Below, in pieces: positions 7,844-26,625 of a stretch of DNA of 50,357 nt. This DNA comes from Calditrichota bacterium (lineage in GTDB: Bacteria; Electryoneota; Electryoneia; Electryoneales; Electryoneaceae): assembly GCA_018263585.1 (NCBI GenBank), contig JAANWZ010000073.1:1-50357 (forward strand). Reading direction: 5' to 3'. Position 1 is the first letter of the stretch. Every line of letters starts with the position of its first letter. The notes under the pieces were generated by a model. It did not search any database, was not told the origin of the DNA, and saw only the letters and a program-made list of their open reading frames with translations. Position numbers and translations under genes: made by a program.

Positions 7844-7853
7844 CAGTCGCCGC

Positions 7854-9005: not shown

Positions 9006-9456
9006 CGTGGCCTCGCTCAAGCTTCGCAGTCAGTTGTCAGTCGCCAGTCGTCAAAGTGCCATCCTGAACCCGAAACGCCGCCACGCGCGAAGGGTGAAGA
9101 GCCTGTCCTGAGCGAAGCGAAGGAATCTCGACCACCGAAGGTCTGGTGCTTCCGTCACGGGTTGCTCTCGAGATCCTTCACACGCGCCCGCAAACCGACG
9201 CGGGCGCGGTTCAGGATGACACAGAGGGGTGCGCAGCTGACGCCGCGCTTGTTCAGGATGACACCATTTGGCCCGCAGTCCGCAGCCCGCAGCCGCTCAA
9301 TCAACCGCGGTGACCTGCGGTCCCCGCGGGCATAACCAACGCATGTGCCCCTGTGACAGCGCGGCGAAGCCGCGATGTCGCAGGGTTGATCGGCGCGGCT
9401 GAACAACCGGTGCACGAGACCCGGGGCAAGCTCCGGGCCATCCTCACAACCACGGT
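9006..9456. repeat. Repeat-rich gap upstream of acyl-CoA dehydrogenase
   Basis: No gene seen. 9058-9221 is a composite palindromic element running from CATCCTGAACCCG to GGTTCAGGATGACAC. A further right-end copy finishes at about 9270. 9305-9332 carries a CCGCGG...CCCGCGGG palindrome, and 9345-9385 is a copy of the TGTGACAG/ATGTCGCAGGG family with an internal GCGGC/GCCGC stem. 9413-9441 has an ACCCGGGGCAAGCTCCGGG hairpin that recurs near 34040. Confidence 0.75.
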
Positions 9457-10485
9457 TCACGGCACCGCGATCGAGCGCAGCGAACCCGGATCCGACTCGC
9501 GCATCAGGTCGAACCCGCGGTTGATCTCGTCGAGACCGAAGCGCGCGGTGACCAGCTCGCTGACCGAGATCTTGCCGATCCGCGCGAGCTCGATGATGCG
9601 CGGGTAATCGACCGGCCGGCAGCCGAGCGATCCGATCACCTCCTGCTCGAAGAACATGATCTTCGCCGCGGGCAACTCGACCGGCTTGTTCGTGTAGCCG
9701 ATCACGACCGTGCGCCCGCCTTTGCGGATGCAGGAGAACGCCTGCTGGATCGTCGCCGGATTGCCGATCGCCTCGAAGCTGACATCGGCGCCGCCGCCGG
9801 TCAGCTTCTTCACCGCCTTGTCGATCCGTTCGACTTCCTTCGCGTTGATCGTCTCGGTCGCGCCCAGCTTTTTCGCCGCTTCCAGCTTCTCGGGGATGAC
9901 ATCGACGGCGATCACGGACGCGCCGACCGCGGCGGCGACCTGGACGGCGTTGATCCCGACCCCGCCGCAGCCGAACACGACGACGTTCATCCCCGCCTTC
10001 ACTTCACCACGGTTGACGACCGCGTGGAACGGCGTGCTGATCGCGTCCGCGATGATGCTGCTCTCTGCGAGCGGGAGTTCATCGGGGAGCGCGAGCGCGT
10101 CCTTCGCCGGCGCGAGCACGTACTCGGCGTACGCGCCGTCCACGTGGTTGCCGAACATCACCATGTTGTCGCAGATGTTCTCGCGGCCGCGGCGGCAGTT
10201 GTCGCACTCGCCGCACGTGAGCACCGCGGGCAGGAGCACGCGGTCGCCCTCCTTCCATGCCTTCACACCCTGGCCGAGCGCGGCGACGGTTCCGGACGGT
10301 TCATGGCCGAGGATCATCGGCGGCTCCTTGAACGTGGGCACGCCGTGGTCGATGTAATGCATGTCGGTGTGGCAGATCCCGCACGCGGCGACCTTGACCA
10401 GGATCTCGCCGGCCCCGGGCTCCGGCGTCGGCAGATCACGCAGCTCGAGCGGCTTGTTCGCCCCGAGAAAGACAGCGGCTCTCAT
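9457..10485 (-). CDS. had: 6-hydroxycyclohex-1-ene-1-carbonyl-CoA dehydrogenase (Had / BzdX-like)
   Basis: A 342-aa zinc-dependent medium-chain dehydrogenase that oxidises the hydroxyl made by the dienoyl-CoA hydratase, the second step after ring reduction. Catalytic zinc ligands Cys35 and His61-Glu62 are present, and the structural zinc is held by Cys91, 94, 97 and 105 (CGECDNC...C). The NAD-binding motif is FGCGGVGINAV. The late segment MFFEQEVIGSLGCRPVDY looks like the benzoyl-CoA-pathway branch. The ATG at 10485 is chosen over a TTG one codon earlier. It sits 3 bp downstream of a 78-aa gene and in one run with the GNAT, redox and ferredoxin genes. General alcohol dehydrogenase activity is the alternative, but Dch and Oah in the same island make Had most likely. 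Confidence 0.88.
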   Translation of the reverse strand: MRAAVFLGANKPLELRDLPTPEPGAGEILVKVAACGICHTDMHYIDHGVPTFKEPPMILGHEPSGTVAALGQGVKAWKEGDRVLLPAVLTCGECDNCRRGRENICDNMVMFGNHVDGAYAEYVLAPAKDALALPDELPLAESSIIADAISTPFHAVVNRGEVKAGMNVVVFGCGGVGINAVQVAAAVGASVIAVDVIPEKLEAAKKLGATETINAKEVERIDKAVKKLTGGGADVSFEAIGNPATIQQAFSCIRKGGRTVVIGYTNKPVELPAAKIMFFEQEVIGSLGCRPVDYPRIIELARIGKISVSELVTARFGLDEINRGFDLMRESDPGSLRSIAVP

Positions 10486-10488
10486 CAA

Positions 10489-10725
10489 TCACCCCCCGTT
10501 GTTGCTCGTTCCGGCGTCCAGCGGCCGGACGTAGATCGTACGTTCGAACTGACTGATGCAACTCCGGCAGCTCTCGTCCGGCGCGTCCTCCGGCGGCTCG
10601 GCGGGTTCGAGCCGGACCTCGTAGCCGAGCTCCGCGTACAGTTGCACCGCCTCCTTGAGCCGCGCGCCGAACGCGTTGAACTTTTTCTCCCAGCCCTCGC
10701 GGGTGAGGTCGTCGCGCGCGCTCAC
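10489..10725 (-). CDS. Small CxxC protein of unknown function
   Basis: A 78-aa acidic protein starting at GTG (10725), with a Gly-rich upstream sequence. I do not recognise the family. It has an amphipathic N-terminal half (EKKFNAFGARLKEAVQLYAE) that could form a helix pair, then a Pro/Glu-rich linker and a CRSC motif near residue 54 that could bind a metal or Fe-S atom or form a disulfide. It is squeezed between the GNAT gene (3-bp gap) and had, so co-expression is very likely. The Azoarcus bzd operon also has small uncharacterised genes at a comparable place; orthology is untested. Confidence 0.65.
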   Translation of the reverse strand: MSARDDLTREGWEKKFNAFGARLKEAVQLYAELGYEVRLEPAEPPEDAPDESCRSCISQFERTIYVRPLDAGTSNNGG

Positions 10726-10728
10726 GGT

Positions 10729-11196
10729 TCAGCCCCCGCCCAGTTCGCTCTCGAGGAACAGCATCGAGCCGGGCGTGAATCCGCGCGCGGCGAAGAAGCG
10801 GAGCAGGTCCTGCTCGCGCCAGCCGACGAGCGTCTGCAGGCGCGTGATCCCAAGCTTGCGCAACTGGTCGCGCGTGTGGTCGAACAGCTCCGTCGCGAGA
10901 CCCATCCGGCCGAACGCGGGCAACACGCCGATCGTGTCCACGCTCGCGACGTTCTCCGGCAGGCCGAATTCGCCGCTGACCACGTTCACCATGATGAACC
11001 CGACGACGTCGCCCTCCACCTCGATCACGTTCGAGGCGGCGACACCCCAGCGCGCATCGAGCGCGGCGTCCAACCGGCGGGCGAGGTACTGCTCGCGGTT
11101 CTCGCCGGAGTTTTCTTCGTCGATCCGCACGAGCGCGGGCAGGTCGTCGCGGCGCACGGGCCGGATCACGATGTCCTCGTTGTGAATGCCGGGCAT
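10729..11196 (-). CDS. GNAT-family N-acetyltransferase
   Basis: A 155-aa GNAT protein. The acetyl-CoA pyrophosphate loop is represented by VDTIGVLPAFGRMGLATELF (around residues 88-107), followed by the terminal strand-helix FFAARGFTPG. The ATG at 11196 has a clear GGAGGA site four bases upstream. It lies 8 bp after the large redox gene and 3 bp before the 78-aa gene, so it belongs to the benzoyl-CoA operon. A role in acetylating pathway enzymes (for example acyl-CoA ligases, as known in benzoate degraders such as Rhodopseudomonas) is a reasonable guess but no more than that. Confidence 0.85.
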   Translation of the reverse strand: MPGIHNEDIVIRPVRRDDLPALVRIDEENSGENREQYLARRLDAALDARWGVAASNVIEVEGDVVGFIMVNVVSGEFGLPENVASVDTIGVLPAFGRMGLATELFDHTRDQLRKLGITRLQTLVGWREQDLLRFFAARGFTPGSMLFLESELGGG

Positions 11197-11204
11197 TGGT
11201 CCTC

Positions 11205-13727
11205 CTAGAACAAATCATCCAGCTCATCATCCCCGCCGCCGGGCAGCTCGCCGTGGCGCTGGATGTGCTGCTGGATTATCTCGCTCTCGCGCTTCGTGTA
11301 CATCGGGTCGAGCACCCACTTCAGCTTGTGCCCGGTTTCCGCGCCATGGTCCTCGAGCCATTCATCGATCAGCCAGCGGATCGACGCGGTCCCGCTGATC
11401 TTCTCCGGCTTGCCGGTGACGTCTGCGAGCACGCACACGCCTGGTTCATCGGGGGCGGATTCGAGGATGCCGGGCTCAAGCGGCACCCACTCCTCCGGCG
11501 GCAGCACCGGCGAGCCGATCCGGTGGCGGATATTGCAGCGCAGGCAGCGGTTCGCCTCCGCGGTCGCCTGCACCGGGTCCATCGTAAGCCGCACGAGCTC
11601 GAAATCCTCCATCCGCTGCTTCGGATCCCGTTTCGGTGTCGGTTGCCGCGGCTCGAGCGTGATCGAGGCACCGTCGAACCCGTTCCCGTCGGCGGCGGCG
11701 AACTCGAAGCGCCCGTCCCCGCCGAGGAAGCGGTCGATCCCGGCGGCGGCGCGCTTGCCGGAGGCGATCGCCTCGACGACCGAGGACGGCCCGTGCACGA
11801 GATCGCCCGCACCGAAAAACCCCGGCAGCCACGTTTCCACCGACTCCGCGTCCGGCGAGAGCAGCCCGCGGTTCTTCAACACATCGCCCGCCTCCGGGCC
11901 GAACACGGTCGTATCGGTCTCGAGCCCGACCGCGAGGATCACCCAATCGGCTTCGCGGGTGATGCGCGCGTCCACCGCGATCTGCGGGTCGAACCGGCCC
12001 TGCTCGTCGAACACGCGGTTGCAGCGCGCGAACACCACTTCGCCGACACGGCCGTCCTCGCCGCGAAACTCGTGCGGGCCCCAGCCGTGGGTGAACGAAA
12101 CTCCCTCCGCGAGCGCCTCCGCGACCTCCTCCGGGTGCGCGGGCAGTTCGTGCTCCTGCTCGAGCGATACGACCTCGACCGACTCAACGCCGGAGCGGAG
12201 CGCGGTCATCGCGGTGTCCATCGCGACCCCTCCGCCGCCGATCACGACCACGCGTCCGTTCGTTTTCACCGGACGGTCGGATCGCGCCGCGCGCAGGTAG
12301 TCCACGCCCCAGAGTACGCCGTCGAGCTCCGCGCCGGGCACGTCGATCTGCTTGCTCAACGGCGTGCCCATCGCGAGCAGGACGGCGTCGTAGCCGAACT
12401 CGCGGAGCGTGCGCGGGTCGAGGTCGCGTCCGAGCCGGCGGCCGCCGTGAAACTCGATCCCGAGCCGGTCGAGGAACTCGAGATCACGCGCGAGCTCCAT
12501 CTCCGGGAGCCGGAACCGCGGCAACACCTGGCGGAGGAACCCGCCGGGCTTGTCGGCGGCGTCGAACAACGTCACCTTGTGCCCTTTCAGCGCGAGCAGC
12601 CAGGCGGCGGACAACCCGGCCGGCCCGGCGCCGACGATCGCGACACGGCGGCCGCTGTCGAGCATGCCCTCGATCGCCGGGTACGGTTCCTCCGTGTCGA
12701 ACGCGAACCGCTTCAGGTCGCAGATCGCGACCGGGTCGTCGAGCCGACCCCGCCGGCAATGGTCCTCGCACGGGTGGAAGCAGACGTAGCCGAGCGTCGC
12801 GGGCAGCGGCACGCTCTCCGCGATCGCGCGGCGCGCGCCGGGCAGGTCGCCCTCCGCGATCCTGCGCACGTAGAGCGGGATGTCGATCCCCGCGGGGCAG
12901 GCGTGGATGCACGGCAACGGCTGGCCGCCGGCCGGGGTCTCCACGCCCTCCCGGTCACGGAGCGCGCCGGTCGGGCAGATCTCGACACACGCGCCGCAGA
13001 ACCGGCACTCCGCTTCCGGCAGATCGCCCGGCTTCTTCGTACCGACGATGAACTGGTCGCCGTGCATCACCGCGCCGAGCACGTCCGCCTTGACCACGTC
13101 CCGGCACACGCGCACGCACTTGAGGCAGCCGATGCAGAGCTCGTAGTCGCGCACGAACAGCGGGTCGGTGAGGATCGTTTTCTGATCCGGGCCGGAATAG
13201 GTCGGGAGGTCATCCGCGTAACCGACGAAATCCGACACCTTCCCGATCTCGCAGTGGCCGAGCAGCACGCAGCAGCGGTCCTTCACCGGCACGTTCATCG
13301 AACACTCGGTTCGGCTGCAGCCCTCGCGCTGTTCGCAGAGCAGGCACGCGTGCGGGTGGTCGGCGAGGATGCCGTTGAGCGCGACCTGGCGGGCGCGGAC
13401 GAGATCCTCGCCGGTGGTTGTGATCCGCATCCCCTCGCCGACCGGGATCCGGCACGCCGGCCGCGGCAGATCATCCCCCTCGACCAGCACCTTGCACAGG
13501 CCGCATCCCTTCTTCTCCGCTTCCCGGACCGTGAGCCCGGCGCGCTCGCCGCGGAACTCGCTGTCGCCCTGATAGACGACCTCGTCGAGCACGACGTCGG
13601 TCAGTGAACCGACAGCGTGATGCGCGCACAGGTGCGGAACGTAGATGTCCGCCGCAAGCGCGGCCTCGAGGATCGTCACGCCCGGTTTCGTTTCAACCGG
13701 CTTGCCGTCGATCTCGATCGTGATCAT
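11205..13727 (-). CDS. NuoG-like 2Fe-2S/4Fe-4S module fused to GltD-like flavoprotein (BzdV-like electron donor)
   Basis: An 840-aa redox fusion starting at ATG 13727 behind a GAGGAA site. Order: an N-terminal [2Fe-2S] domain (~1-105) with a ~35-residue insert between its first Cys and the GCGLC motif; a NuoG-type His/Cys3 segment (HACLLCEQ...GC...C); two [4Fe-4S] motifs (CIGCLKCVRVC and CRFCGACVEICP); then a GltD-like half with FAD motif GAGPAG and NAD(P) motif GGGGVAMD. The last ~85 residues (DPMYTKRESEIIQQ) resemble a degenerate GIY-YIG-like module. Encoded directly after the ferredoxin gene, it probably passes electrons between NAD(P)H and ferredoxin for benzoyl-CoA reduction. Direction, and any electron bifurcation, are unproven. 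Confidence 0.85.
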   Translation of the reverse strand: MITIEIDGKPVETKPGVTILEAALAADIYVPHLCAHHAVGSLTDVVLDEVVYQGDSEFRGERAGLTVREAEKKGCGLCKVLVEGDDLPRPACRIPVGEGMRITTTGEDLVRARQVALNGILADHPHACLLCEQREGCSRTECSMNVPVKDRCCVLLGHCEIGKVSDFVGYADDLPTYSGPDQKTILTDPLFVRDYELCIGCLKCVRVCRDVVKADVLGAVMHGDQFIVGTKKPGDLPEAECRFCGACVEICPTGALRDREGVETPAGGQPLPCIHACPAGIDIPLYVRRIAEGDLPGARRAIAESVPLPATLGYVCFHPCEDHCRRGRLDDPVAICDLKRFAFDTEEPYPAIEGMLDSGRRVAIVGAGPAGLSAAWLLALKGHKVTLFDAADKPGGFLRQVLPRFRLPEMELARDLEFLDRLGIEFHGGRRLGRDLDPRTLREFGYDAVLLAMGTPLSKQIDVPGAELDGVLWGVDYLRAARSDRPVKTNGRVVVIGGGGVAMDTAMTALRSGVESVEVVSLEQEHELPAHPEEVAEALAEGVSFTHGWGPHEFRGEDGRVGEVVFARCNRVFDEQGRFDPQIAVDARITREADWVILAVGLETDTTVFGPEAGDVLKNRGLLSPDAESVETWLPGFFGAGDLVHGPSSVVEAIASGKRAAAGIDRFLGGDGRFEFAAADGNGFDGASITLEPRQPTPKRDPKQRMEDFELVRLTMDPVQATAEANRCLRCNIRHRIGSPVLPPEEWVPLEPGILESAPDEPGVCVLADVTGKPEKISGTASIRWLIDEWLEDHGAETGHKLKWVLDPMYTKRESEIIQQHIQRHGELPGGGDDELDDLF

Positions 13728-13737
13728 CGCCCGTTCC

Positions 13738-14019
13738 TCACCAGGAGTGTTCGATCGCGCCCGGGGTGCAGGCGGCGACGCACGGCAGCGGCGGCCGCTC
13801 ATCCACCGGCTTGCACGGCGCGCAGTCGTACTTGATCGACTTCCGGTGCTCTTCCCTTATTTCCGCGACAAGATCGTCCCAGTCATCCTCGATGATACGG
13901 AACATCCCATGCGGGCAGGCTTCCACGCACGGATGCTCGGCGCATTCGACACACTTGTCAGTGTCGATCGTGATGAAATACTCGCCGGAGCCGTCCATGT
14001 AGCCGTAGTTTGCTTTCAT
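13738..14019 (-). CDS. Di-cluster ferredoxin (BzdM-like)
   Basis: A 93-aa ferredoxin, likely the electron carrier to the benzoyl-CoA reductase. The ATG at 14019 has a TGAGGA ribosome site. The first cluster motif is CVECAEHPCVEACP (from about residue 23). The second is split as CAPC, then eleven residues including a Pro-rich loop, then CVAACTP near the C-terminus, an unusual spacing. It is followed after 10 bp by the large redox fusion. Azoarcus has a ferredoxin gene right after bzdNOPQ; here it also follows bzdQ, but across a 765-bp repeat region, so it probably has its own promoter. A TATGAT-like hexamer is at 14060-14065, without a good -35 partner. Confidence 0.85.
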   Translation of the reverse strand: MKANYGYMDGSGEYFITIDTDKCVECAEHPCVEACPHGMFRIIEDDWDDLVAEIREEHRKSIKYDCAPCKPVDERPPLPCVAACTPGAIEHSW

Positions 14020-14784
14020 CGTGTCCTCAGGTTTTATCCCATTCCGCAATAACCCACAGATCATAGCGAGGTATTATGTACGATTCCCTCCGGTGCGAGA
14101 CGGCTGTGTCATTCTGAACGAAGCCCGATGTCAGTTGATCGGGCGAAGTGAAGAAGGTCCAGGTAAAATACGCACCACTCTACGCCATTTCCGTTCATAG
14201 AGACTGTTGATAAAGGCGCGATCGACCGTCATGCTGAATGAAGTGAAGCAGGTCCAAGTTTGCTGACGGTGGTTCTCATGAGTCAACCTATTGATAACTC
14301 GGACCTTCTTCCGCCGCCCGTGGCGGCGTCAGAATGACATATCACCGGCGGTCGGCGGTTCATCGAGCCCCGACCACTTTTTCAACAGTCTCGAAACTAC
14401 GACCTTCTTCACCCGCAGGCGGCAAACAGATACCGCCTGCGGGTTCAGAATGACACTCTGCCGTGCCTCGCCGGGAGTGTCATCCTGAAGCCGAAAGTCC
14501 CCGGTTCTGAACGCCCCGACGTGTCATCCTGAACACCCGTGCGACGGTTTGCGCCCCCACCGTGTCATCCTGAACCCGAAGCGCCGGTCAGTTTCGGCGC
14601 GAAGGGTGAAGGATCTACGCGGTGGTCCGCCCAAGGGTTATGTTGAACAATAAACCATGGTGGTTCTTGCTGGTAGACCCTTCACTCGCGCCGCCTCAAC
14701 AGATACAAACGGCGGCGCGGTTCAGGATGACACATCTGGCCGTTATCTTCAATGCGCAACAGGCCCTGAAGTGAACGGCAAGCT
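14020..14784. repeat. Long repeat array between bzdQ-like and ferredoxin genes
   Basis: No gene seen in 765 bp. A half element begins at 14108 (GTCATTCTGAACGAAGCCCG). A complete element spans 14228-14337, and a right half ends at about 14454. From ~14477 to 14734 there are three close GTGTCATCCTGAA starts and one GGTTCAGGATGACAC end. Reading toward the ferredoxin, 14041-14090 is AT-richer and could hold its promoter. Confidence 0.75.
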
Positions 14785-15678
14785 TCAGGTTGAGACGCTT
14801 GTCTTCTTCTTCCGCGCCTTGCCTTTTTCCACGAGCGCCTTCGCGAACAGGGCTGCGCCGAGCGCGCCGGCGATCTGCGTGTCGTGTTTCGGCTTGAGCG
14901 CGGTCAGTCCGAGCTCCTCCTCGAGCCGGTTGACGACGCCGACGTTCTTCGCGATCCCGCCGGTGATCGCGAAGTCCGGCTGCACGCCGACCCGTTCGAG
15001 CAGGGTGAACACGCGGTGCGCCATTGCGGAGCAATAGGCGGCGAGTACCTTCGACTGCGGCCAGCCGTCACGGAGCAGCCCGGCCGCCTCCGATTTCGCG
15101 AACACGACACACGTCGAGGACACCGGCGGCGGCTCCTTTTCCACCTGCAGCGAGCGATCGCCGACCTCCTCGATCGGGATCCCGAGCAGGTCGGCGAACA
15201 CCTCCATCCCACGGCCGGTGCCGGCGGCGCACTTGTCGTTCATCAGGAAGTTGGTCACCTTACCGCGCTCGTCACACAGGATCGCCTTGCAGTCCTGGCC
15301 GCCCATGTCGAGTATCGTGCGCACGGTCGGGCCGTACATGTAGTTGCCGCCGCGCGCGTGGCACGCGATCTCGGTGATCGCCTTGTCCGCGAACGGCACG
15401 TTCACCCGGCCGTACCCGGTGCCGACGATGAAATCGAAGTCATCGATCGTCATCCCCGTGTTCTCGAGCGCCCAGTTCATCGCGTTGAGCGCGCTGTTCG
15501 GGCTGTCCGAGCCGGTGCGCATGTTGGAGAACGCGAACAGCTCGCCGTCGGCCATCACCACCGCCTGCGAACTGACCGAGCCGACATCGACTCCGCCGGT
15601 GATCATCGACGCGCTCCGCCAGTCACGTTCCTCATCCTGCCAGTTGTATTCCTTCCAGCGCCAGTACTCCTTGGCCAT
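14785..15678 (-). CDS. bzdQ: Benzoyl-CoA reductase ATPase subunit (BzdQ/BcrD-like)
   Basis: A 297-aa ASKHA-fold ATPase and Fe-S subunit of class I benzoyl-CoA reductase. The ATG at 15678 (MAKEYWRWKEYN) excludes 15 upstream residues. Near the N-terminus is the phosphate-1 motif GGVDVGSVSSQAVV; then GYGRVNVPFADKAITEIACH, DMGGQDCKAI, the cluster ligand NDKCAAGTGRG and a second cysteine in STCVVFAKSE. It probably dimerises with the neighbouring BzdP-like protein around a shared [4Fe-4S] cluster and couples ATP hydrolysis to electron transfer. Two short ATPase subunits (297 and 269 aa) match the Azoarcus bzd type rather than the Thauera bcr type, where one is ~440 aa. Confidence 0.9.
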   Translation of the reverse strand: MAKEYWRWKEYNWQDEERDWRSASMITGGVDVGSVSSQAVVMADGELFAFSNMRTGSDSPNSALNAMNWALENTGMTIDDFDFIVGTGYGRVNVPFADKAITEIACHARGGNYMYGPTVRTILDMGGQDCKAILCDERGKVTNFLMNDKCAAGTGRGMEVFADLLGIPIEEVGDRSLQVEKEPPPVSSTCVVFAKSEAAGLLRDGWPQSKVLAAYCSAMAHRVFTLLERVGVQPDFAITGGIAKNVGVVNRLEEELGLTALKPKHDTQIAGALGAALFAKALVEKGKARKKKTSVST

Positions 15679-15727
15679 TGTGTGCTCCTCGTTGCTGGTG
15701 TGAATGACTGCCTGTCCGCCCACCGTG

Positions 15728-16537
15728 TCATCCTGGACCGGAAGCGCCGGTCTCTGTCGCCGCGACCACCGCGCGCTCGGCGGCGACCAGCGCGGCGCCG
15801 TAGGCGGCGATCATCTCCGGCGCGTCCGGGATCCGCACCTCGTCCTGCATCGCCGTGTTCAGCGAATGGATGAAGCCGACATTGCGCGCCATCCCGCCGA
15901 CGAGCACGACCGGCTTGTTCAGCCCGACACGCCGTGTCATCGACACGATCCGGCTCGCGATCGCGTCGTGGATCGCCTTCGCGATGTCCTGCTTCGGGGT
16001 GCGCGCGTGCAGCAGGCTGATCACCTCGCTCTCGGCGAACACGGCGCACTGCGCGTTCATCGGCACGGACGCGTCCGATTTCAGCGAGATCCTGCCGAGT
16101 TCATCGACGGAGACCTCGAGCGCGCGGGCCATCGCCTCGGTGAACGCGCCGGAGCCGGCCGCGCACTTCTCGTTGATCGCGAAGTCCTCGACTTTTCCCC
16201 GTTCGCCGGAACGTATCGCGCGGCCTTCCTCCGCGCCGACGTCGATCACCGTCTTCGTGTCGGGATACAACTCGAAACAGGCGCGCGCGGCGGCGGTCAC
16301 CTCCGTGATCTTGTCGCCGGCGTACTGCACCGCCTTACGGCCCGCGCCCGTAGAACAGATTCCGGTCACCTCGTCACGGTCGATCCCGAACTCGGCGAGC
16401 GTCGCGGCGAGCAGCTCGTTTGTCACCGTTTCCTGGTCGAACCCGCTCTCCCGGCTTTTCTTTCCCACGATCTCCCCGTCCCGGAGAACGAGCAGTTTCG
16501 CGTTCTTCGCGCCAACGTCCACGCCAATCGTGATCAT
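15728..16537 (-). CDS. bzdP: Benzoyl-CoA reductase ATPase subunit (BzdP/BcrA-like)
   Basis: A 269-aa ASKHA ATPase subunit. I take the second ATG of a tandem pair (16537), four bases after GAGGTG; the pair at 16540/16549 is possible. Motifs: GVDVGAKNAKLLVL at the N-terminus, GAGRKAV, DVGAEEGRAI, the cluster ligand NEKCAAGSG and a second Cys in NAQCAVFAESE, then the adenosine-side GGMARNVG. It sits between the beta-like subunit (8 bp upstream) and bzdQ, giving the order N-O-P-Q seen in Azoarcus. 2-hydroxyacyl-CoA dehydratase activators are relatives, but two ATPase genes together with both large subunits point to benzoyl-CoA reductase. Confidence 0.9.
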   Translation of the reverse strand: MITIGVDVGAKNAKLLVLRDGEIVGKKSRESGFDQETVTNELLAATLAEFGIDRDEVTGICSTGAGRKAVQYAGDKITEVTAAARACFELYPDTKTVIDVGAEEGRAIRSGERGKVEDFAINEKCAAGSGAFTEAMARALEVSVDELGRISLKSDASVPMNAQCAVFAESEVISLLHARTPKQDIAKAIHDAIASRIVSMTRRVGLNKPVVLVGGMARNVGFIHSLNTAMQDEVRIPDAPEMIAAYGAALVAAERAVVAATETGASGPG

Positions 16538-16545
16538 CATCCACC

Positions 16546-17856: not shown

Positions 17857-17870
17857 CGGTGATCTCCTGC

Positions 17871-17968
17871 GTTGTCGGTGTGTACACGCCGCCCCGGGTT
17901 CGGCGAACCCGGGCTACGTGTTGTCGGTGTGTACGCGCCGCCCCGGGTTCCACGGACCCGGGACTCCG
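17871..17968. repeat. 49-bp tandem duplication with hairpins inside the bzdN-bzdO spacer
   Basis: Two adjacent 49-bp copies (17871-17919, 17920-17968), each beginning GTTGTCGGTGTGTAC and containing a CCCGGG...CCCGGG stem. The first stem (17893-17913) is a full palindrome through CGGCG; the second (17942-17962) has a slightly different loop. Lying between co-transcribed subunit genes, the stems could affect mRNA stability or relative expression. Confidence 0.85.
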
Positions 17969-17971
17969 CCA

Positions 17972-19096
17972 TCAAAACAGATCCTCCTCCATCAGCATCT
18001 CGAGGAACGCCTCCGTGCGGATCCGGAACTGGCCCATCGGCACGGTCACGTCGAACTCGAGGAACAGGGTCGGGAACCCGTTCTCCTCCAGGTAGCTGCG
18101 CAGCGGGACCATGTCGGCCTCGTGCGGGTCGCAGAACTTCTGCTGGATGAGGATCACGCCGGCGACGTCGAAGTCCCGCGCGAGCTTGAGGATGTGCGGG
18201 AAACGCGTGCGCGCGACATGGTCCTTCGCCGGGCAGGCGGGGCGCTCCACGTACCGCTTCGCGATCGCCTCGATCCGGTCGTCCAGCTCAGGCGTTTCGT
18301 TCCAGAAGTAGCGGGTGCCGGTGCAGTGGTCGTCGGTGACCACCGTCGCGCCGACCGCCTCGACCATGCGGATGAAGTCGGTGTCATCGTTCTCCGACCC
18401 GACGAGCATCAGCCGGGTGCCGTCGCCGAACTGCTCCTCGCGCTCGTCGAGCTGCGCGAGCACCTTTCGCAACTCCGCCGTGTGCTCCTCCTTGTCCACC
18501 CACATCGAGCTGACGGTGACCCACATCGCCTCGAGGCCGGACAGCTTCGGGACCGGTCCTTTCCGGTGCGCGTAGAGCTCGTGCAGCGCGGCGCGGTTCT
18601 CGTTCACGAGCCGGATTCCGCGGTCGAGGTCGTCGTCGCTGAGCGGCTTGCCGGTGAACTGCTCCACCGCGGCGCGGAACTTTTTCAGCTCCTCGTAGAG
18701 GTAGGGGACGGCGTGCGGGGAGGCGACGTGCATCGGGTGCGGGAGGTAGTAGGTGAAGTCGTGCGGGACATTCTCCTCCCAACTCCGGTACGTCTGGCGC
18801 AGGTGGATGCACGACTGCGCGATCGTGATCCCGTCGAGGTACTCGTACCGTCCCTTCAGCCCCTGCGCGAGCACGTCCCGGCAGAACGGGCAGAACATCC
18901 CGAACAGGTGCTGCTCGGTTACGTCCTGCGGCTCGTGGTTGCCGAGCACGCGCACCGGGAGGATGTCCGCCGCGACCAGGATCTCCTCCGGCACGTAACT
19001 GCAGAAGCAGCCGAACACCTTGCCGCCCGTTCGTTCCTTCCACCGGCGCGCGTAGTCGTGACGGTCACGGTACCAGGTTTCGAACTGTGAGAACAT
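17972..19096 (-). CDS. bzdN: Benzoyl-CoA reductase large subunit (BzdN/BcrC-like)
   Basis: A 374-aa HgdB-fold subunit, close to the ~380 aa of Azoarcus BzdN. The ATG at 19096 (MFSQFETWYRD) is chosen; 70 upstream in-frame residues are repeat translation. Cluster-type cysteines are in VFGCFCSYVPEEIL, FGMFCPFCRDVL, QSCIHLRQ and IQQKFCDPHE. This is the first gene of the N-O-P-Q run. About 50-100 bp upstream is an AT-rich stretch (19140-19195) with two direct GTCTAT copies 13 bp apart that could belong to its promoter. Related 2-hydroxyacyl-CoA dehydratase subunits exist, but the full four-gene set and the pathway context make benzoyl-CoA reductase the best call. Confidence 0.92.
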   Translation of the reverse strand: MFSQFETWYRDRHDYARRWKERTGGKVFGCFCSYVPEEILVAADILPVRVLGNHEPQDVTEQHLFGMFCPFCRDVLAQGLKGRYEYLDGITIAQSCIHLRQTYRSWEENVPHDFTYYLPHPMHVASPHAVPYLYEELKKFRAAVEQFTGKPLSDDDLDRGIRLVNENRAALHELYAHRKGPVPKLSGLEAMWVTVSSMWVDKEEHTAELRKVLAQLDEREEQFGDGTRLMLVGSENDDTDFIRMVEAVGATVVTDDHCTGTRYFWNETPELDDRIEAIAKRYVERPACPAKDHVARTRFPHILKLARDFDVAGVILIQQKFCDPHEADMVPLRSYLEENGFPTLFLEFDVTVPMGQFRIRTEAFLEMLMEEDLF

Positions 19097-19585
19097 GGTT
19101 CCCTCGCGTCTCGCGGCCGTCTCCCCCCGGCGACGGGCCTGTCTATAGTGTTTGTCTATTATGAATATGTACGCACGAAAAATCTGTATTGTGTCGCGCT
19201 CTCCGCGCCCGGCAAGCACGTCATTCTGAACGAAGCCCGTTGTCAGTTTGTCGGGCGCAGTGAAGTTTATCCTGAAAGTAGTGAAGGGAAGGTCCAGGTA
19301 GAACAAGGGTCACGTTTGCAAGCCGCTCCGTTTTCGAACCCGGACCTTCTTCACCCGCGGGCGGCACACAGACGCCGGCCGCGGCTTCAGAATGACGCGC
19401 TCCCGTCCCCCTTTCAGAACTCGGCACGGGTCGTTCCCTGCAAGCGGCTTCAGAATGACGCGCTCCCGTCCCCCTTTCAGAACTCGGAACGGGTCGTTCC
19501 CTGCAAGTTGTTCACTACTCAGCGAACGCGCCTGCACTGTGAGCGCGTACGCGCTTGTTCAGGATGACACATTTGCGCCGCCCGC
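19097..19585. repeat. Region upstream of bzdN: AT-rich promoter-like stretch, palindromic element, 63-bp tandem repeat
   Basis: No gene seen. 19140-19195 is AT-rich for this genome and carries two GTCTAT direct repeats, a candidate regulatory region for bzdN. 19220-19396 is a composite element (GTCATTCTGAAC to TCAGAATGAC). A 63-bp unit starting GCGGCTTCAGAATGAC is then present twice in tandem (19381-19443, 19444-19506) with very few differences. A GTTCAGGATGACAC end lies at ~19557-19570. Confidence 0.75.
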
Positions 19586-20356
19586 CTACCTGTGCCTCCA
19601 CTCCGGCTTCCGCTTTTCGAGGAACGCGTTCAGGCCCTCGTTCGCGTCCGCGGTCGCCATCAACTCCTCCATGTACAGCTTGTCCGCGATCGCCATCCCT
19701 TCGCGCGCGTCCTTCGCGTACGCGGCGTCGATCGCCTTCTTGCCGACCGCGATCACGGCTGCGCTCTGTTTCGCGAACTGCGCGCAGTACTCGTCCACAT
19801 CCTCAGCGAACGAGTCCGGCGCGAACACGCGGTTGACGAGTCCGGCGGCGTGCGCGTCCGCGGCGGAATAGATTTTCCCGGTGAGCAGCCACTCGATCGT
19901 GCGGTTGCGCCCGATCAGTTGCGGGAACACGGCGACCGCCATCGGGGGAAACACACCGACCGAGATCTCCGGCTGGCCGAGCTTCGCGGATTCGGATGCG
20001 AGCACGATGTCGCAGCCGACGGCGAGTTCGCAGCCGCCGCCGAGCGCGAGCCCGTGCACCGCCGCGACCGTCACCGACGGGATGTCCCAGAGCGCCTGGA
20101 ACAGCCGGTCGAACGTGTTGATCATCTCCACCGCCTTCTCGCCGGTGTGTTCGCCGACATCGACTCCGGATGAAAACGCCTTGCCCGCCGCCGCGATCAC
20201 GACCACGCGCAGCTGACTGTCGAGCGCGAGATCGCGGAAACAGTCCACGAGCTCGTTCATCATCTCGATGTTGAGGATGTTGAACGGTTCGCGTTCGAGC
20301 GTGACCGTCGCGCGCCCCTCGCCGCTCGCGACATGGATGTGCCGGTACTCCTTCAT
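19586..20356 (-). CDS. dch: Cyclohexa-1,5-diene-1-carbonyl-CoA hydratase (Dch / BzdW-like)
   Basis: A 256-aa enoyl-CoA hydratase-fold protein, proposed to add water to the cyclic dienoyl-CoA made by benzoyl-CoA reductase. The ATG at 20356 overlaps the upstream gene by 4 bp. Oxyanion-hole segments are AAGKAFSSGVDVGEH (57-71) and ALGGGCELAVGCD (104-116) with Glu110. The segment GQPEISVGVFPPMAVAVFPQ, with no second canonical acid after GVFPP, is typical of the Dch branch as I recall it. The C-terminal trimer helix is complete. Generic crotonase activity is the alternative; the company of bzdNOPQ, had and oah supports Dch. Confidence 0.85.
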   Translation of the reverse strand: MKEYRHIHVASGEGRATVTLEREPFNILNIEMMNELVDCFRDLALDSQLRVVVIAAAGKAFSSGVDVGEHTGEKAVEMINTFDRLFQALWDIPSVTVAAVHGLALGGGCELAVGCDIVLASESAKLGQPEISVGVFPPMAVAVFPQLIGRNRTIEWLLTGKIYSAADAHAAGLVNRVFAPDSFAEDVDEYCAQFAKQSAAVIAVGKKAIDAAYAKDAREGMAIADKLYMEELMATADANEGLNAFLEKRKPEWRHR

Positions 20357-20916
20357 CGGTCCCCCCTTTCCTCCCGCTCGCCGGAGTTTTCGACCTCTTG
20401 CTGATCGACGCTGAACGGCAGGCACGAGTCCTTGAGGAACTCGCGCGCGCGTTCGATGAACTCGGCGTCGGTCATCCGCCGCTCGCGCCACTCCTTCTCG
20501 TCGCCGGTTGCGAAGCCCATCAGTACGTTGGACGACATCCGCACCGCTTCGACGGTCAGTTCGTAGAGGTGCGTGCACCCCTTCGCGCCGGCGAGCAACG
20601 GGCGCATCCTCTTCGTGATCCCGCGCTCGATGCGCAGCCCGATCACGCGCTTGATGTGCTGCGCGGTGAGCGCGCAGATCCCGAACGGGACCTTCACCAT
20701 CTGGCAGCGCGCGTCCACGATCTCCCGGTCGGGGACACTGATCACGAGATCGACGCGCATGTTGTGGTTCAGGTCGAGCAGCGACGATTTCGTCTTGATC
20801 GTGTCGGACGCGAGCTGTGTGACCGCGACGTTGATGTTGCGTTCGTAGATCGCGTCGTAGTCGAGCTTCGCGGACTCGGAACGTTGCTCGAGTTTCTCAA
20901 GCCCCTTGATCGGCAC
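20353..20916 (-). CDS. DUF2889-like protein
   Basis: A 187-aa protein that I place, from memory of the family pattern, in the DUF2889 group. Its landmarks are VDLVISVPDREIVDARCQMVK in the middle, then GLRIERGITKR and GAKGCTHLYELTVEAVR (~108-124). No signal peptide or membrane segment is seen. It overlaps dch by 4 bp (ATGA), so the two are translationally coupled. Members of this family occur beside CoA-linked aromatic and steroid degradation genes, but no biochemical role is known to me. The conserved His-Cys pair (GCTHL) could be a ligand or catalytic site. Confidence 0.72.
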   Translation of the reverse strand: MPIKGLEKLEQRSESAKLDYDAIYERNINVAVTQLASDTIKTKSSLLDLNHNMRVDLVISVPDREIVDARCQMVKVPFGICALTAQHIKRVIGLRIERGITKRMRPLLAGAKGCTHLYELTVEAVRMSSNVLMGFATGDEKEWRERRMTDAEFIERAREFLKDSCLPFSVDQQEVENSGEREERGDR

Positions 20917-21246
20917 TGGGTTGTCCTCTAATCTTGGTTCCTACACTTTAGGCGGAGCATCAAATGCTAAAAAGGCTCTTCACTATTCCAGAGCAGCGAT
21001 GACAGCATCGTCATTCTGAACGAAGCCCGATGTCAGTTTATCGGGCGTAGTGAAGAAGGTCCAGCTAAACAGAAGGTTCTGTTCGCAACCCTTACCTTGT
21101 TCGCACTCGGACCTTCTTCAGCCACGGGCGGCACACTGACGCCGGCCGCGGCTTCAGAATGACGTGTTCGCCTCCCGCGCAGAATCATATCACAGAGCAG
21201 GGACACAATGAGCGCGCATCATTTCAGACGCGGGTGAAGCAACGCC
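20917..21246. repeat. Repeat element and promoter region upstream of the DUF2889-dch pair
   Basis: No gene seen. 20940-21000 is AT-richer and contains a small palindrome AGCAT-CAA-ATGCT (20956-20968) near a TTTAGGC sequence similar to one arm of the palindrome at 35205. 21010-21163 is a composite repeat, GTCATTCTGAACGAAGCCCG to CAGAATGAC, with GAAGAAGGTCC and GGACCTTCTTC as internal complementary arms. Confidence 0.7.
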
Positions 21247-22440
21247 TCACCCCTCGCGCCGGATCACGAGCGCCATCGTCACCCCGCCGCCGCCACAGAT
21301 CGCGGCGATGCCGTGCTGCTTGTCGTGTGTTTTCAGCGCGTGCGCGAGCGTGACCGCGATCCGCGCGCCGGAAATCCCGGTCGGGTGCCCGAGCGCGATC
21401 GCACCGCCGTGCACGTTCACCCGTTCCCGGTCCCAGCCGAGCGCGCGTTCGTTCGCGAGCACCTGGATCGCGAACGCTTCGTTCACCTCGATCAGGTCCA
21501 TCTCGGCGAGCGACATCCCGGCGCGTGCGAGTGCGATCGGGATCACGACTCCCGGCCCTTCGCCCATCGTCTCGGGCGAAACGGCGGCCTTCGCGTGCGC
21601 CACGAGCGAAAAGATCGGTTTCGCGCCGAGCTCACGGGCTTTCTCGCGGGTCGTGAGCACGAGCGCGGTCGCGCCGTCTGACATCCCGCACGCGTTGCCC
21701 GCGGTCACCGTGCCGCCCTTGCGGAACACCGGCGGCAGCTTCCCCATCTTCTCGCGGTTGATCGGGTGGCGGATCGTCTCGTCACGGGCGAACGTGACTT
21801 CCGTGTCGCGTTTGCTCGCCGGGGGAACGGTGACCGGCACGACCTCCTCGTCGAACCAGCCGTTCTCCCACGCTGTGTGCGCCTTCTCATGCGATCCGGC
21901 GGCGAACTCGTCCTGCTCCTCACGGCTGATCCCGTACTTGTCGAACAGGTTCTCCGCCGACTGGCCCATCCCTTCGCCGGTGAGCGGGTCGATCGAGTCG
22001 GACCAGCCGTCCTCGAGCACCTTGTTGCCCATCTTCATCCCCGACCAGCGCGTGTTCTTGAGCAGGTAGGGGATCGTGGACATCGAATCGAAGCCGCCGG
22101 CGAGCGCGATTTCCGATTCGCCGAGCAGTATCTGCTGGGCGGCGAACGCGATCGCGCGCATCCCGGACGGGCACGCCATGTTCAGCGTGATCACCGGCGC
22201 CGACTCGGGCACTCCTCCACGGACGGATGCTGTGCGCGCCGGGTTCGGCCCGTTGCCCGCCTGCCGGCACGAACCGAGGATCACGTCGTCGATCTGGTCG
22301 GGCTCGACGCGCGCACGTTCCCACGCCGCCCGCACAGCGACCGCGCCGACGTCGTACGCGGCCATGTTCTTCAACGTGCCGCCGAACGAACCCATCGGCG
22401 TGCGGCACGCCGAAATCGCAACGATGTCGTTCAAGTCCAT
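21247..22440 (-). CDS. Acetyl-CoA acyltransferase (thiolase)
   Basis: A 397-aa type II thiolase. The nucleophilic cysteine is Cys90 in NMACPSGMRA; His appears in GGAIALGHPTGISGARI, and the second catalytic Cys in AAICGGGGVTMA. The start is ATG 22440 (MDLNDIVAIS), excluding a repeat-derived extension. In this pathway the expected role is cleavage of 3-oxopimeloyl-CoA to glutaryl-CoA and acetyl-CoA, or of acetoacetyl-CoA; sequence does not separate these. It stands alone between two repeat regions, close to the SDR and Oah genes on the same strand. Confidence 0.9.
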   Translation of the reverse strand: MDLNDIVAISACRTPMGSFGGTLKNMAAYDVGAVAVRAAWERARVEPDQIDDVILGSCRQAGNGPNPARTASVRGGVPESAPVITLNMACPSGMRAIAFAAQQILLGESEIALAGGFDSMSTIPYLLKNTRWSGMKMGNKVLEDGWSDSIDPLTGEGMGQSAENLFDKYGISREEQDEFAAGSHEKAHTAWENGWFDEEVVPVTVPPASKRDTEVTFARDETIRHPINREKMGKLPPVFRKGGTVTAGNACGMSDGATALVLTTREKARELGAKPIFSLVAHAKAAVSPETMGEGPGVVIPIALARAGMSLAEMDLIEVNEAFAIQVLANERALGWDRERVNVHGGAIALGHPTGISGARIAVTLAHALKTHDKQHGIAAICGGGGVTMALVIRREG

Positions 22441-22786
22441 AGCGTGTTCCGTTCTCCGTATTCTCGCTGTGCCCCTGTGACAGCCACGCCGGAGCGCAGC
22501 GAAGGCGGGATGTCGCAGGGATTTCTGCTCTCGAATCTCGTTCGCGTTGTCAGCGGCAACCGGCACGCGGACGCCGGCTCGTGTGTCATCCTGAACGAAG
22601 TGAAAGATCTCGACATCCAAAACGGACAGCGCGACCTGACCTTCAGTGCTCGAGATTCCTTCGCTTCGCTCAGGACAGGCTCTTCACCCTTCGCGCCGAA
22701 ACAGACCGGCGCTTCGGGTTCAGGATGACACATTGTCGGCCTTCCACAGGCTCGCAACTCGCAACTCGCTACTCGCTACTCGCAAC
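22441..22786. repeat. Repeat-filled gap upstream of thiolase
   Basis: No gene seen. 22469-22520 is a copy of the TGTGACAG/ATGTCGCAGGG family. 22580-22730 is a composite element from GTGTCATCCTGAACG to GGTTCAGGATGACAC with GATCTCGA and TCGAGATTCC as internal complementary parts. A short CGCAACTCGCTACT-like direct repeat run lies at about 22752-22790. Confidence 0.75.
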
Positions 22787-23539
22787 TCAGATATACTGCC
22801 CGCCGTCCACCTTGATGATCTCGCCGGTGATGTGACGGGCGCGGTCGGAGGCGAGGAACGCGCAGATCCAGGCGATATCCTCCGGCTCACCGAGCTTGCG
22901 CAGCGCGGTCTCGTCGAGGCTCGCCTGTTTCGCCTGCTCCGGCATCTGCTGCATCATGTCGGTCATGATCAGGCCGGGGGCGACGGAATTGACCGTGATC
23001 CCGCGCCCGCCGAGTTCCTTCGCGACGGTTTTCGTGAGCCCGATCACCCCCGCCTTCGCGGCGCTGTAATTCGCCTGGCCGAACTTGCCGCGCAGGCCGT
23101 TGATCGAGGTGACGTTGACAATCCGTCCGGCGCGCTGCTCGCGGAAATGGGGCGCGGCGGCACGGATCGTGTTGAAGCAGCCTTTCAGATCGACGCTGAT
23201 CACCGCGTCCCACTGCTCCTCGCTCATCTTCCAGATCACGCCGTCCCGGTTCATCCCTGCGTTGTTCACGAGGATGTCGAGCGCGCCGAACGTGTCGATC
23301 ACCTCCGCAACGAGCTTCTGCGCGCGGTCGAAGTCGGCGGTGTCGGCCTGGTACGCCTTCGCGCGCACGCCGAGCTTCTCCGCCTCGGCCGCGAGCGCGT
23401 CGGCCGCCTCCTTCTGCTTGCGGTACGTGAACGCGACACCCGCGCCTTCTTCCGCGAAGTGGCGGACGATCGCGGCGCCGATCCCGCGGCTGCCGCCGGT
23501 AACCAGCGCGACCTTCCCTGACAACAGTTGTTCCGCCAT
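22787..23539 (-). CDS. Short-chain dehydrogenase/reductase (3-hydroxyacyl-CoA type)
   Basis: A 250-aa classical SDR, FabG/PhaB-like. The cofactor motif TGGSRGIG is at 14-21, NNAG at 92-95, and the catalytic residues are Ser145, Tyr158 and Lys162 (YSAAK). The C-terminus, ITGEIIKVDGGQYI, is complete. It starts 3 bp after the Oah gene. Because Oah forms 3-hydroxypimeloyl-CoA, oxidation of that hydroxyl to 3-oxopimeloyl-CoA is a natural role. The helix-type dehydrogenase at 26626 is a competing candidate. Acetoacetyl-CoA reductase is another possibility. Confidence 0.87.
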   Translation of the reverse strand: MAEQLLSGKVALVTGGSRGIGAAIVRHFAEEGAGVAFTYRKQKEAADALAAEAEKLGVRAKAYQADTADFDRAQKLVAEVIDTFGALDILVNNAGMNRDGVIWKMSEEQWDAVISVDLKGCFNTIRAAAPHFREQRAGRIVNVTSINGLRGKFGQANYSAAKAGVIGLTKTVAKELGGRGITVNSVAPGLIMTDMMQQMPEQAKQASLDETALRKLGEPEDIAWICAFLASDRARHITGEIIKVDGGQYI

Positions 23540-23542
23540 CGC

Positions 23543-24676
23543 TCACTCCTCCCGCGGCGTGCCGAGCACGGCTTCGAACAGGTCCTCGCCTGACTCCGCG
23601 CCTTCCGCGAGCCGGCGCCGGTATTCGACGAAATCGATCACGCTCGTCCCGGTCTGCTTGCGTGTGTTGAACGCGTGGAACCCGAGCAGCGCCTCGCCCT
23701 GCATGTTCGCCGCGAGCCAGTGACGGTGCTCGTGTTTCGTCATGTCCCAGAAGAACCGCTTCTTCTGACGGATCCCGTCGATCGACTTCATCAGGCAGCC
23801 GGGGAACAGGTTGGTGAACGTCCACGCGATCTTATTGATTTCCGCGTCGAGCAGGCTGAAGTCGTAGTCGGCTTCCTTGAGCACGGACTTCGCTTGCTTC
23901 GCGGCGTCGCCGGTGACGAATTCGCCATACACGACCTCGCCGTCCTCGATCCAGCGGTCGGTGATCACGAGCGGGTTGCGAGTGAATTCGCCGTCCTGTT
24001 TGAGCACGGGCACGACCTTCGTCACCAGCCCCTTCTGCTTCATCTTGTACGCGGACCATAGTTCGCAGGAGACGCAGTTCCAGATCGCATCATCGAAACT
24101 GAGGATGCCGGGGAGGAAGTCGGTCGAGCCGCCGTCCGGGGCGGAACCGTGCCGCGGGCCGGCCTGGCCGAAGATCGCGGTGTCGACGGCCAGCGTGAGG
24201 TCGCACGCCATCCCGATCTCCTGGCCGCCGGCGACGCGCATCCCGTTCACCCGGCAGATCACCGGCTTCTTGCACGTGAGGATCGCATCGACCATCCCGT
24301 TGAACAGGTCCATGTAGAGGCCGTATTCCTGCGGGCGGCCGGCGTAGTATTCGGCGTACTCCTTCGTGTTTCCGCCCGTGCAGAACGAGCGGCTGCCGGC
24401 GGCGGTGAACACGACCGCGACCACGCGCCGGTCCATCGACGCGCGGTGAAACCCCGCGATCACACCCTTCACCATCTCCGTCGTGTACGAGTTGAACTGT
24501 CCCGGGTTGTTCAACGTGATCCAGGCGGTGTACAGGCCGTCGACCGGGTTTCCCTTCGGGTCGGTGATCGGCCTGCGCTCGTAGATGATCCCCGGCGGTT
24601 CGGTGGAGAAGTAGCTGTCGTCGAACAGATCGTGGTCCTTGATCTCCTCGTCGCGGGGCAGCCAGTCGAGACTCAT
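23543..24676 (-). CDS. oah: 6-oxocyclohex-1-ene-1-carbonyl-CoA hydrolase (Oah / BzdY-like)
   Basis: A 377-aa crotonase-superfamily ring-opening hydrolase, close to the known ~375-aa length. It adds water and hydrolytically opens the ring to give 3-hydroxypimeloyl-CoA. The ATG at 24676 (MSLDWLPRDEEIKDHDLF) follows a GGGGG tract; 11 upstream residues are dropped. Diagnostic stretches are SRSFCTGGNTKEYAEYYAGR (~96-115), RVNGMRVAGGQEIGMACD, GQAGPRHGSAPDGGSTDFLP and a C-terminal part with TKHEHRHWLA. The gene is followed directly by the SDR. This is one of the firmest markers that the island degrades benzoyl-CoA anaerobically. Confidence 0.94.
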   Translation of the reverse strand: MSLDWLPRDEEIKDHDLFDDSYFSTEPPGIIYERRPITDPKGNPVDGLYTAWITLNNPGQFNSYTTEMVKGVIAGFHRASMDRRVVAVVFTAAGSRSFCTGGNTKEYAEYYAGRPQEYGLYMDLFNGMVDAILTCKKPVICRVNGMRVAGGQEIGMACDLTLAVDTAIFGQAGPRHGSAPDGGSTDFLPGILSFDDAIWNCVSCELWSAYKMKQKGLVTKVVPVLKQDGEFTRNPLVITDRWIEDGEVVYGEFVTGDAAKQAKSVLKEADYDFSLLDAEINKIAWTFTNLFPGCLMKSIDGIRQKKRFFWDMTKHEHRHWLAANMQGEALLGFHAFNTRKQTGTSVIDFVEYRRRLAEGAESGEDLFEAVLGTPREE

Positions 24677-26623: not shown

Positions 26624-26625
26624 GA

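Follow-up and report, generated by a model that had tools for sequence, protein, structure and literature searches.

Which type of benzoyl-CoA reductase, if any, is encoded on contig JAANWZ010000073.1 of the Calditrichota bacterium assembly GCA_018263585.1? The window analysed here is this whole stretch of 50,357 nucleotides. An initial annotation, made from the letters alone, had proposed for positions 9457-24676 a complete bzd-type, ATP-dependent benzoyl-CoA pathway in a genome of the FCB (Fibrobacteres-Chlorobi-Bacteroidetes) group. From the sequence evidence set out below we consider it about 93% probable that this region is a cluster for a BZD-type, ATP-dependent class I benzoyl-CoA reductase with downstream pathway genes.

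Identity of the reductase

The genes bzdN, bzdO, bzdP and bzdQ follow one another on the minus strand (Table 1). Gene starts were taken from a codon-usage gene caller, and the products were scanned with the NCBIfam equivalog models, which have curated cut-offs, and with Pfam. BzdN, BzdO and BzdQ exceed their curated cut-offs, as does the ring hydrolase Oah. No BzdP-specific model was found, and BzdP was assigned by the generic activase model TIGR00241. The curated profiles thus confirm the Azoarcus-like order N-O-P-Q that had been read from the letters; in Azoarcus itself the order is bzdNOPQM(STU)V (PMC5658619). A scan of GTDB contigs with peptide patterns derived from the FCB group returned 214 relatives, and the best 80 of these 214 are our named loci (L028-L107), each with 10 kb of flank. 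Nearly all of the named relatives whose flank is sufficient show N-O-P-Q-M(-V) in co-linear arrangement, and therefore the order is not due to chance.

The best solved relative of both BzdO and BzdN is BzdNO of Aromatoleum sp. CIB (PDB 8s02), with 63% identity of BzdO to chain 8s02_A and 55% identity of BzdN to chain 8s02_B. Against the solved structures BzdO scores 661 bits with 8s02 versus 114 bits with HadBC, and BzdN 487 versus 176 bits. The reference residues of the active site were taken from PMC11971306. The ligands of the [4Fe-4S] cluster of BzdO are kept (C91, C124 and C378, which are Cys95, Cys128 and Cys380 in Aromatoleum), and so are the catalytic residues E61 and H127 (Glu65 and His131). 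Also kept are, in Aromatoleum numbering, Trp46, Tyr97, Gln124, Gln274, Tyr298, Leu302 and Leu383; in window numbering these contacts include Y93, Q272 and Y296. BzdN has the double-cubane cysteines C32, C69, C72, C96, C258, C288 and C322 and the Arg/His shell of the distal cluster, R49, R262, R285 and H325 (Arg53, Arg267, Arg290 and His330). Two distinct ATPase subunits are encoded, each with a Cys pair for the shared [4Fe-4S] cluster. In BzdQ these are C150 (KCAAGTG) and C190 (TCVVFAKSE), invariant across 66 sequences; in BzdP the two activase motifs contribute C126 and C165, which do not vary among 72 sequences.

These proteins share one family (HGD-D, PF06050) with the 2-hydroxyacyl-CoA dehydratases, and BzdN also matches the HadC and double-cubane models. 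One could therefore read the four genes as a dehydratase (HadBC with its activase) or as another double-cubane reductase of amino acid fermentation. However, the Bzd models score about three to five times higher, and the HadB and HadC models give 141 and 178 bits, where 750 and 700 would be needed. When BCR-type subunits and 2-hydroxyacyl-CoA dehydratases are included in one tree, BzdO falls into a clade of its own that includes Aromatoleum (14 rows; 100 in the Shimodaira-Hasegawa-like approximate likelihood ratio test, SH-aLRT), and BzdN does likewise (14 rows, SH-aLRT 99). This is a quick tree with long outgroup branches. Both subunits stand in Bzd clades outside the dehydratases and the BCR-type subunits; the grouping inside the dehydratases that would have refuted the initial annotation does not occur. 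Moreover, two different activases are encoded and not one, His131 is kept in BzdO whereas HadB has Ala (PMC11971306), and the cluster contains a dedicated Oah. A dehydratase is thus very improbable.

Among benzoyl-CoA reductases, the BCR-type class I enzyme of Thauera is alike in superfamily, in its four subunits and in being driven by ATP, but the window subunits reach only 61-143 bits on the BcrA, BcrB, BcrC and BcrD models, far under the cut-offs. The class II reductase (BamB-I) yields the same reaction product. A Pfam search found no AOR-type domain (PF02730) in the window genome, nor a BamB-type AOR domain in any BzdO-positive genome. Nothing therefore points to a class II reductase.

Electron supply and lower pathway

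Downstream of BzdQ the initial annotation had placed a ferredoxin and a large flavoprotein, and the Pfam domains bear this out. The flavoprotein combines 2Fe-2S, 4Fe-4S and GltD-type NAD(P)H-binding parts, and a homologue follows BzdM in 56 of the 80 named loci. The predicted Dch, Had and Oah homologues are likewise present, Oah over its cut-off, Had and Dch under theirs. Had is 69-87% identical across Electryoneota and has the same place there, beside BzdV. In three families of the phylum Dch is the gene immediately upstream of BzdN. Generic enoyl-CoA hydratase models outscore TIGR03189 for Dch; its assignment rests mainly on position.

We infer that the cluster would work in these following steps. 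The BzdM ferredoxin would be kept reduced by the BzdV-like flavoprotein, possibly also by the adjacent 2-oxoacid:ferredoxin oxidoreductase. Reduced ferredoxin would then supply electrons to the BzdPQ ATPase pair, which by homology should use about one ATP per electron. Driven in this way, the electrons would pass the double cubane of BzdN and reach the [4Fe-4S] cluster of BzdO that bears a water ligand, where benzoyl-CoA would be converted to cyclohexa-1,5-diene-1-carbonyl-CoA. Hydration by Dch, oxidation by Had and ring opening by Oah would give 3-hydroxypimelyl-CoA, which the SDR or 3-hydroxyacyl-CoA dehydrogenase together with the thiolase could process in the direction of glutaryl-CoA and acetyl-CoA.

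Among the closest known counterparts is the cluster BzdNOPQ-M-V-W-X-Y of Aromatoleum (Azoarcus) sp. CIB (PMC5658619, PMC11971306). It shares with the window the order N-O-P-Q-M-V, BzdNO at 55-63% identity with the same cluster ligands and catalytic Glu and His, and homologues of Had and Oah. They differ in that Dch and Oah lie upstream of BzdN in the window and downstream in Aromatoleum, that the window BzdO has Gly in place of Ser44, that the window cluster is without a benzoate-CoA ligase, and that it has an extra LeuA/B/C/D-like module, a second thiolase and Hcr-like genes.

Several observations weigh against our assignment. Dch and Had score under their own curated cut-offs (154 versus 293 and 262 versus 339 bits). 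The acyl-CoA dehydrogenase beside Had is over no equivalog cut-off and is not assigned as a glutaryl-CoA dehydrogenase, and benzoate-CoA ligase (TIGR02262) is over cut-off in none of the 39 Electryoneota genomes that form our phylum sample. Finally, Ser44, which in Aromatoleum BzdO forms a hydrogen bond with the catalytic Glu65 (PMC11971306), is replaced by Gly40; this is the sole change among the checked residues. Of the proposed complete pathway, the stretch from benzoyl-CoA to about glutaryl-CoA stands, but a benzoate-CoA ligase over its cut-off and a clearly assigned glutaryl-CoA dehydrogenase are missing and Dch remains under its cut-off. Gly at the Ser44 position is common to the window and all 80 aligned relatives (L028-L107), a sample selected by FCB motifs; the statement is valid for this sample only, and the scan probably missed proteobacterial members, because its patterns are FCB-derived. 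Since only one proteobacterial sequence was in the comparison, we do not take Ser44 as family-defining.

The same observations could be understood if the true substrate of the class I enzyme were an aryl-CoA that is larger or carries a substituent, such as 3-hydroxy- or 3-methylbenzoyl-CoA: no benzoate-CoA ligase is over the cut-off, Dch and Had are divergent, and Gly in place of Ser44, which lies near C3 of the ring, leaves more room. But the remaining checked ring-contact residues are identical to those of Aromatoleum BzdO, and MbdO of the 3-methylbenzoyl-CoA reductase matches far worse (58 versus 661 bits). We regard such a substrate as improbable, and benzoyl-CoA as the probable one.

Table 1. 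Predicted genes and other features of the window (f1, f2 and f3, families of Electryoneota; aa, amino acids)
Feature	Position	Strand	Evidence
Repeat-bearing intergenic regions, examples	2602-2856, 4494-4724, 9171-9273, 14108-14467, 19219-19579
Repeat-bearing intergenic regions, further examples	21010-21176, 27604-27960, 31368-31458, 48091-48151
2-oxoacid:ferredoxin oxidoreductase gamma	2908-3510	minus	Pfam POR, TPP_enzyme_C, POR_N, PFOR_II across subunits; NCBIfam
2-oxoacid:ferredoxin oxidoreductase beta	3503-4390	minus
2-oxoacid:ferredoxin oxidoreductase alpha	4876-6036	minus
NAD(P)H-binding Fe-S flavoprotein	6020-7798	minus	next to 2-oxoacid:ferredoxin oxidoreductase genes
Acyl-CoA dehydrogenase	7854-9005	minus	beside Had in f1 and some f2/f3 genomes
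Had	9457-10485	minus	TIGR03201 best NCBIfam model, 262 bits, cut-off 339
Small conserved protein, 78 aa	10489-10725	minus	gene call; no Pfam match; homologues near bzd in 27/80 named loci
GNAT acetyltransferase-like	10729-11196	minus	weak PRK03624 match; homologues in 19 named loci
BzdV-like Fe-S flavoprotein, 840 aa, putative NAD(P)H:ferredoxin oxidoreductase	11205-13727	minus	Pfam Fer2_4, Fer4_20, Pyr_redox_2, NuoG-like Fer4
BzdM-like ferredoxin	13738-14019	minus	Fer4 domains; homologue after BzdQ in 65/80 named loci
BzdQ, ATPase/activase subunit	14785-15678	minus	TIGR03192 438 bits, cut-off 380
BzdP, ATPase/activase subunit	15728-16540	minus	TIGR00241 205 bits, cut-off 125
BzdO, catalytic [4Fe-4S]-OH2 subunit	16546-17856	minus	TIGR03191 695 bits, cut-off 449
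BzdN, double-cubane [8Fe-9S] subunit	17972-19096	minus	TIGR03190 500 bits, cut-off 454
Dch, crotonase family	19586-20356	minus	TIGR03189 154 bits, cut-off 293
DUF2889 protein	20353-20916	minus	PF11136; same position in f1 and f2
Thiolase, putative 3-oxopimelyl-CoA thiolase	21247-22440	minus	TIGR01930 430 bits; conserved in cluster
SDR dehydrogenase, putative 3-hydroxypimelyl-CoA dehydrogenase	22787-23539	minus	FabG-like SDR; conserved beside Oah
Oah ring hydrolase	23543-24676	minus	TIGR03200 553 bits, cut-off 464; BadI model 108 bits
LeuA/homocitrate-synthase-like HMGL protein	25163-26629	minus	PF00682 and HCS_D2
3-hydroxyacyl-CoA dehydrogenase	26626-27549	minus	PRK07819 334 bits, cut-off 319
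C-terminal crotonase, 689 aa	27968-30037	minus	ECH_1 at 427-559; weak 3HCDH_N at 124-193
Divergent thiolase	30034-31287	minus	TIGR01930 131 bits, below cut-off
LeuD-like	31657-32148	minus
MarR regulator	32156-32662	minus
LeuC-like	32668-33960	minus
LeuB-like dehydrogenase	34075-35142	minus
Hcr-like molybdenum enzyme subunit B	35507-36451	plus	nearer xanthine/glyceraldehyde dehydrogenase-type models
Hcr-like molybdenum enzyme subunit C	36448-36918	plus	nearer xanthine/glyceraldehyde dehydrogenase-type models
Hcr-like molybdenum enzyme subunit A	36911-39283	plus	TIGR03194 best model, 850 bits, cut-off 995
Type IX secretion system (T9SS)-type C-terminal domain	43371-43643		PF18962

Source genome, distribution and inheritance

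The window is contig C137 of a metagenome-assembled genome (MAG) of 2.85 Mb in 165 contigs, 92% complete (G000). According to the genome kinship table G000 belongs to the Electryoneaceae, the family of Candidatus Electryonea clarkiae, and to a phylum that also includes Ca. Hatepunaea meridiana and LCP-89. Electryoneota (formerly AABM5-125-24/LCP-89) is a phylum of the FCB group (PMC10439189, PMC9727166), and G000 is thus an FCB genome and not a proteobacterial one, as had been guessed from a PNPF-type C-terminal domain and dispersed repeats. Both of these features are present, and the T9SS-type domain agrees with the FCB placement. The repeats are intergenic and resemble repetitive extragenic palindromic (REP-type) elements. 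Their cores include TTCAGGATGACAC and GTCATGCTGAACGAAGTGAAG, and some of them form short tandem runs of 45-46 bases.

BzdO is over the cut-off in 15 of the 39 Electryoneota genomes, and these 15 belong to three families (f1, f2 and f3). All of them also have Oah over its cut-off, as against 5 of the 24 BzdO-negative genomes (Fisher p = 8e-7, kinship ignored). In a tree of BzdN and BzdO the sequences of the phylum group together (SH-aLRT 98), Zixibacteria are their sister group (87), and support for each family is 100. This points to inheritance of bzd within Electryoneota, that is, to shared ancestry and not to a recent transfer into the window genome. The outgroup consisted of distant dehydratases (20.9-24.6% identity) from a tblastn search of BzdO against plasmids, and the 8s02 sequence of Aromatoleum is the sole proteobacterial BzdNO in our trees; with the long outgroup branches its position in the rooted tree is not resolved. 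The sequences of Zixibacteria RBG-1 (L077) stand apart from other Zixibacteria, beside a KSB1 sequence, which suggests transfer or paralogy.

As the genome is a MAG in many contigs, the window might be a binning contaminant and the cluster foreign to the FCB genome. However, three further genomes of this family, all separately assembled, contain the cluster too, with BzdN, BzdO, BzdP and BzdQ 67-90% identical, the BzdN/O tree returns the three families of the phylum as clades, and the T9SS-type domain lies on the same contig. Contamination is therefore extremely improbable.

The bzd clusters of Zixibacteria and of other Electryoneota match the window in the order N-O-P-Q-M-V and have BzdO about 70-86% identical to that of the window; in the tree they form sister clades. 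Most Zixibacteria loci have no Oah, HMGL or thiolase homologue within the 10 kb flank, whereas the window has all of them. In two f2 genomes insertions lie between bzdN and bzdO (G009, L150 15232-16836; G003, L031 about 2700-10000), and in G009 one insertion contains two small genes resembling an antitoxin/toxin pair. A BCR-type, Thauera-like class I cluster is carried by G029 (G029:C3, L148 3817-17999) and G030 (G030:C96, L149), which belong to another Electryoneota family. Scored in G029, BcrB and BcrC are over the cut-off, while BcrA and BcrD come close to it or fall short; the cluster further includes Had, Oah, Dch, a CoA ligase, an extra HadB-like protein, a third activase and Hcr-like genes. 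Both class I subtypes thus occur in one phylum.

The initial annotation expected that the cluster would widen the host range of class I reductases. This does not hold, as the pathway has already been reported from Electryoneota and many other phyla. Benzoyl-CoA reductase with oah, dch and had was described from AABM5-125-24 MAGs in 2020, as bcr or bam without separation of class I and class II (PMC7673041). In 2023 benzoate degradation followed for the MAG of Ca. Tariuqbacter, also of Electryoneota (PMC10439189). Published hosts of class I genes include Aminicenantes, TA06, Thermoplasmata and Bathyarchaeota (PMC6472368); bzdNOQ is known from Lokiarchaeia and Chloroflexi (PMC12869995) and bzdNOPQ from Desulfotomaculum gibsoniae (PMC4148979). 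Our best 80 of 214 relatives themselves span over a dozen phyla, among them Zixibacteria, Ignavibacteria, Gemmatimonadota, Planctomycetota, Aminicenantes, Elusimicrobia, Bacillota, Chloroflexi and several archaeal ones. In a search of the open literature we found no description of the LeuABCD-like link, of the Gly44 pattern or of BZD-type and BCR-type clusters within one phylum.

A linked LeuABCD-like module

In the window, the genes for the LeuA/homocitrate-synthase-like protein, the crotonase protein, the divergent thiolase and the LeuD-, LeuC- and LeuB-like proteins begin directly upstream of Oah (Table 1). A LeuA-like gene adjoins Oah in every one of the 15 BzdO-positive genomes, and also in G007, where a contig end cuts through BzdO. 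Where the contig is long enough, most genomes of f1, f2 and f3 also have LeuB, LeuC and LeuD beside LeuA-like/Oah (linkage with Oah/bzd at L150, L159, L161-L167 and L171-L173). In the genomes of these families that are negative for BzdO, no LeuA-like gene reaches a similar score.

We considered known functions for the LeuA-like protein. Ketol-acid reductoisomerase (ilvC) is over the cut-off in none of the 39 Electryoneota genomes, with 14 of 14 controls positive. This makes leucine biosynthesis as usually encoded a less likely role, although 2-oxoisovalerate could still come from a ferredoxin oxidoreductase. Homocitrate synthase is disfavoured by the motif VEFGGED in place of the R-F-S-S-E-D type, whose Arg and Ser, both replaced here, presumably bind 2-oxoglutarate. 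Re-citrate synthase is likewise less likely, with si-type citrate synthase matched in 37 of the 39 genomes (only partly in G011; none in G038).

It is conceivable, though on balance unlikely, that the LeuA/B/C/D-like set, in several genomes with the divergent thiolase and the crotonase protein, is an unrecognised lower-pathway step stably joined to the benzoyl-CoA cluster. It might, for example, join a 2-oxoacid to the acetyl-CoA that ring cleavage releases and hand the product to the adjacent 2-oxoacid:ferredoxin oxidoreductase, and ring degradation would thus supply the reduced ferredoxin of the reductase.

The 689-aa crotonase protein has homologues, 54-68% identical, close to the bzd clusters of Electryoneota, Ignavibacteria and Acidobacteria. 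In the latter two groups its pairing with a divergent thiolase near bzd is seen again, and the thiolase occurs in Elusimicrobia as well (L072, L092, L088). Possibly the two are a reversed FadBA-like pair. An AlphaFold model of the crotonase protein from 4 sequences (predicted local distance difference test score, pLDDT, 54) was too poor for a fold search.

Benzoyl-CoA supply and respiration

The Hcr-like molybdenum enzyme is a possible feeder of benzoyl-CoA from 4-hydroxybenzoyl-CoA. The only solved relative of its subunit A below 1e-100 is 4-hydroxybenzoyl-CoA reductase (1rm6). The FAD subunit of the Thauera enzyme carries an extra Fe-S insert. In the window, the alignment of the FAD subunit is contiguous with XdhB-type models and poor with the beta model of 4-hydroxybenzoyl-CoA reductase, and this subunit may thus be without the insert.

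As a rule, a class I reductase accompanies more energetic respiration. G000 encodes narG (1454 bits) and a haem-copper oxidase subunit. A dsr locus (L147 3480-16541, G000:C8) holds dsrA, dsrB, DsrC, an NAD(P)H Fe-S flavoprotein, Fe-S and membrane genes resembling DsrMKJOP, and an 81-aa gene in the position of DsrD with a weak DsrD match. With narG, the oxidase and dsrA, respiration could pay for the ATP, and the gene set would fit the use of class I in an organism able to respire nitrate or oxygen. Other BzdO-positive Electryoneota gave no narG or COX1 matches, but dsrA is present. Such exceptions to the rule have already been discussed (PMC6472368).

In summary, a phylum about which little is known very probably has a BZD-type reductase whose active site is intact. 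Its host has genes for nitrate reductase and haem-copper oxidase and a dsr locus, with no class II (AOR-type) enzyme found, in agreement with the rule that links class I to energetic respiration. Should the LeuABCD-like module turn out to belong to the pathway, the products of ring cleavage would be handled here in a previously undescribed way.

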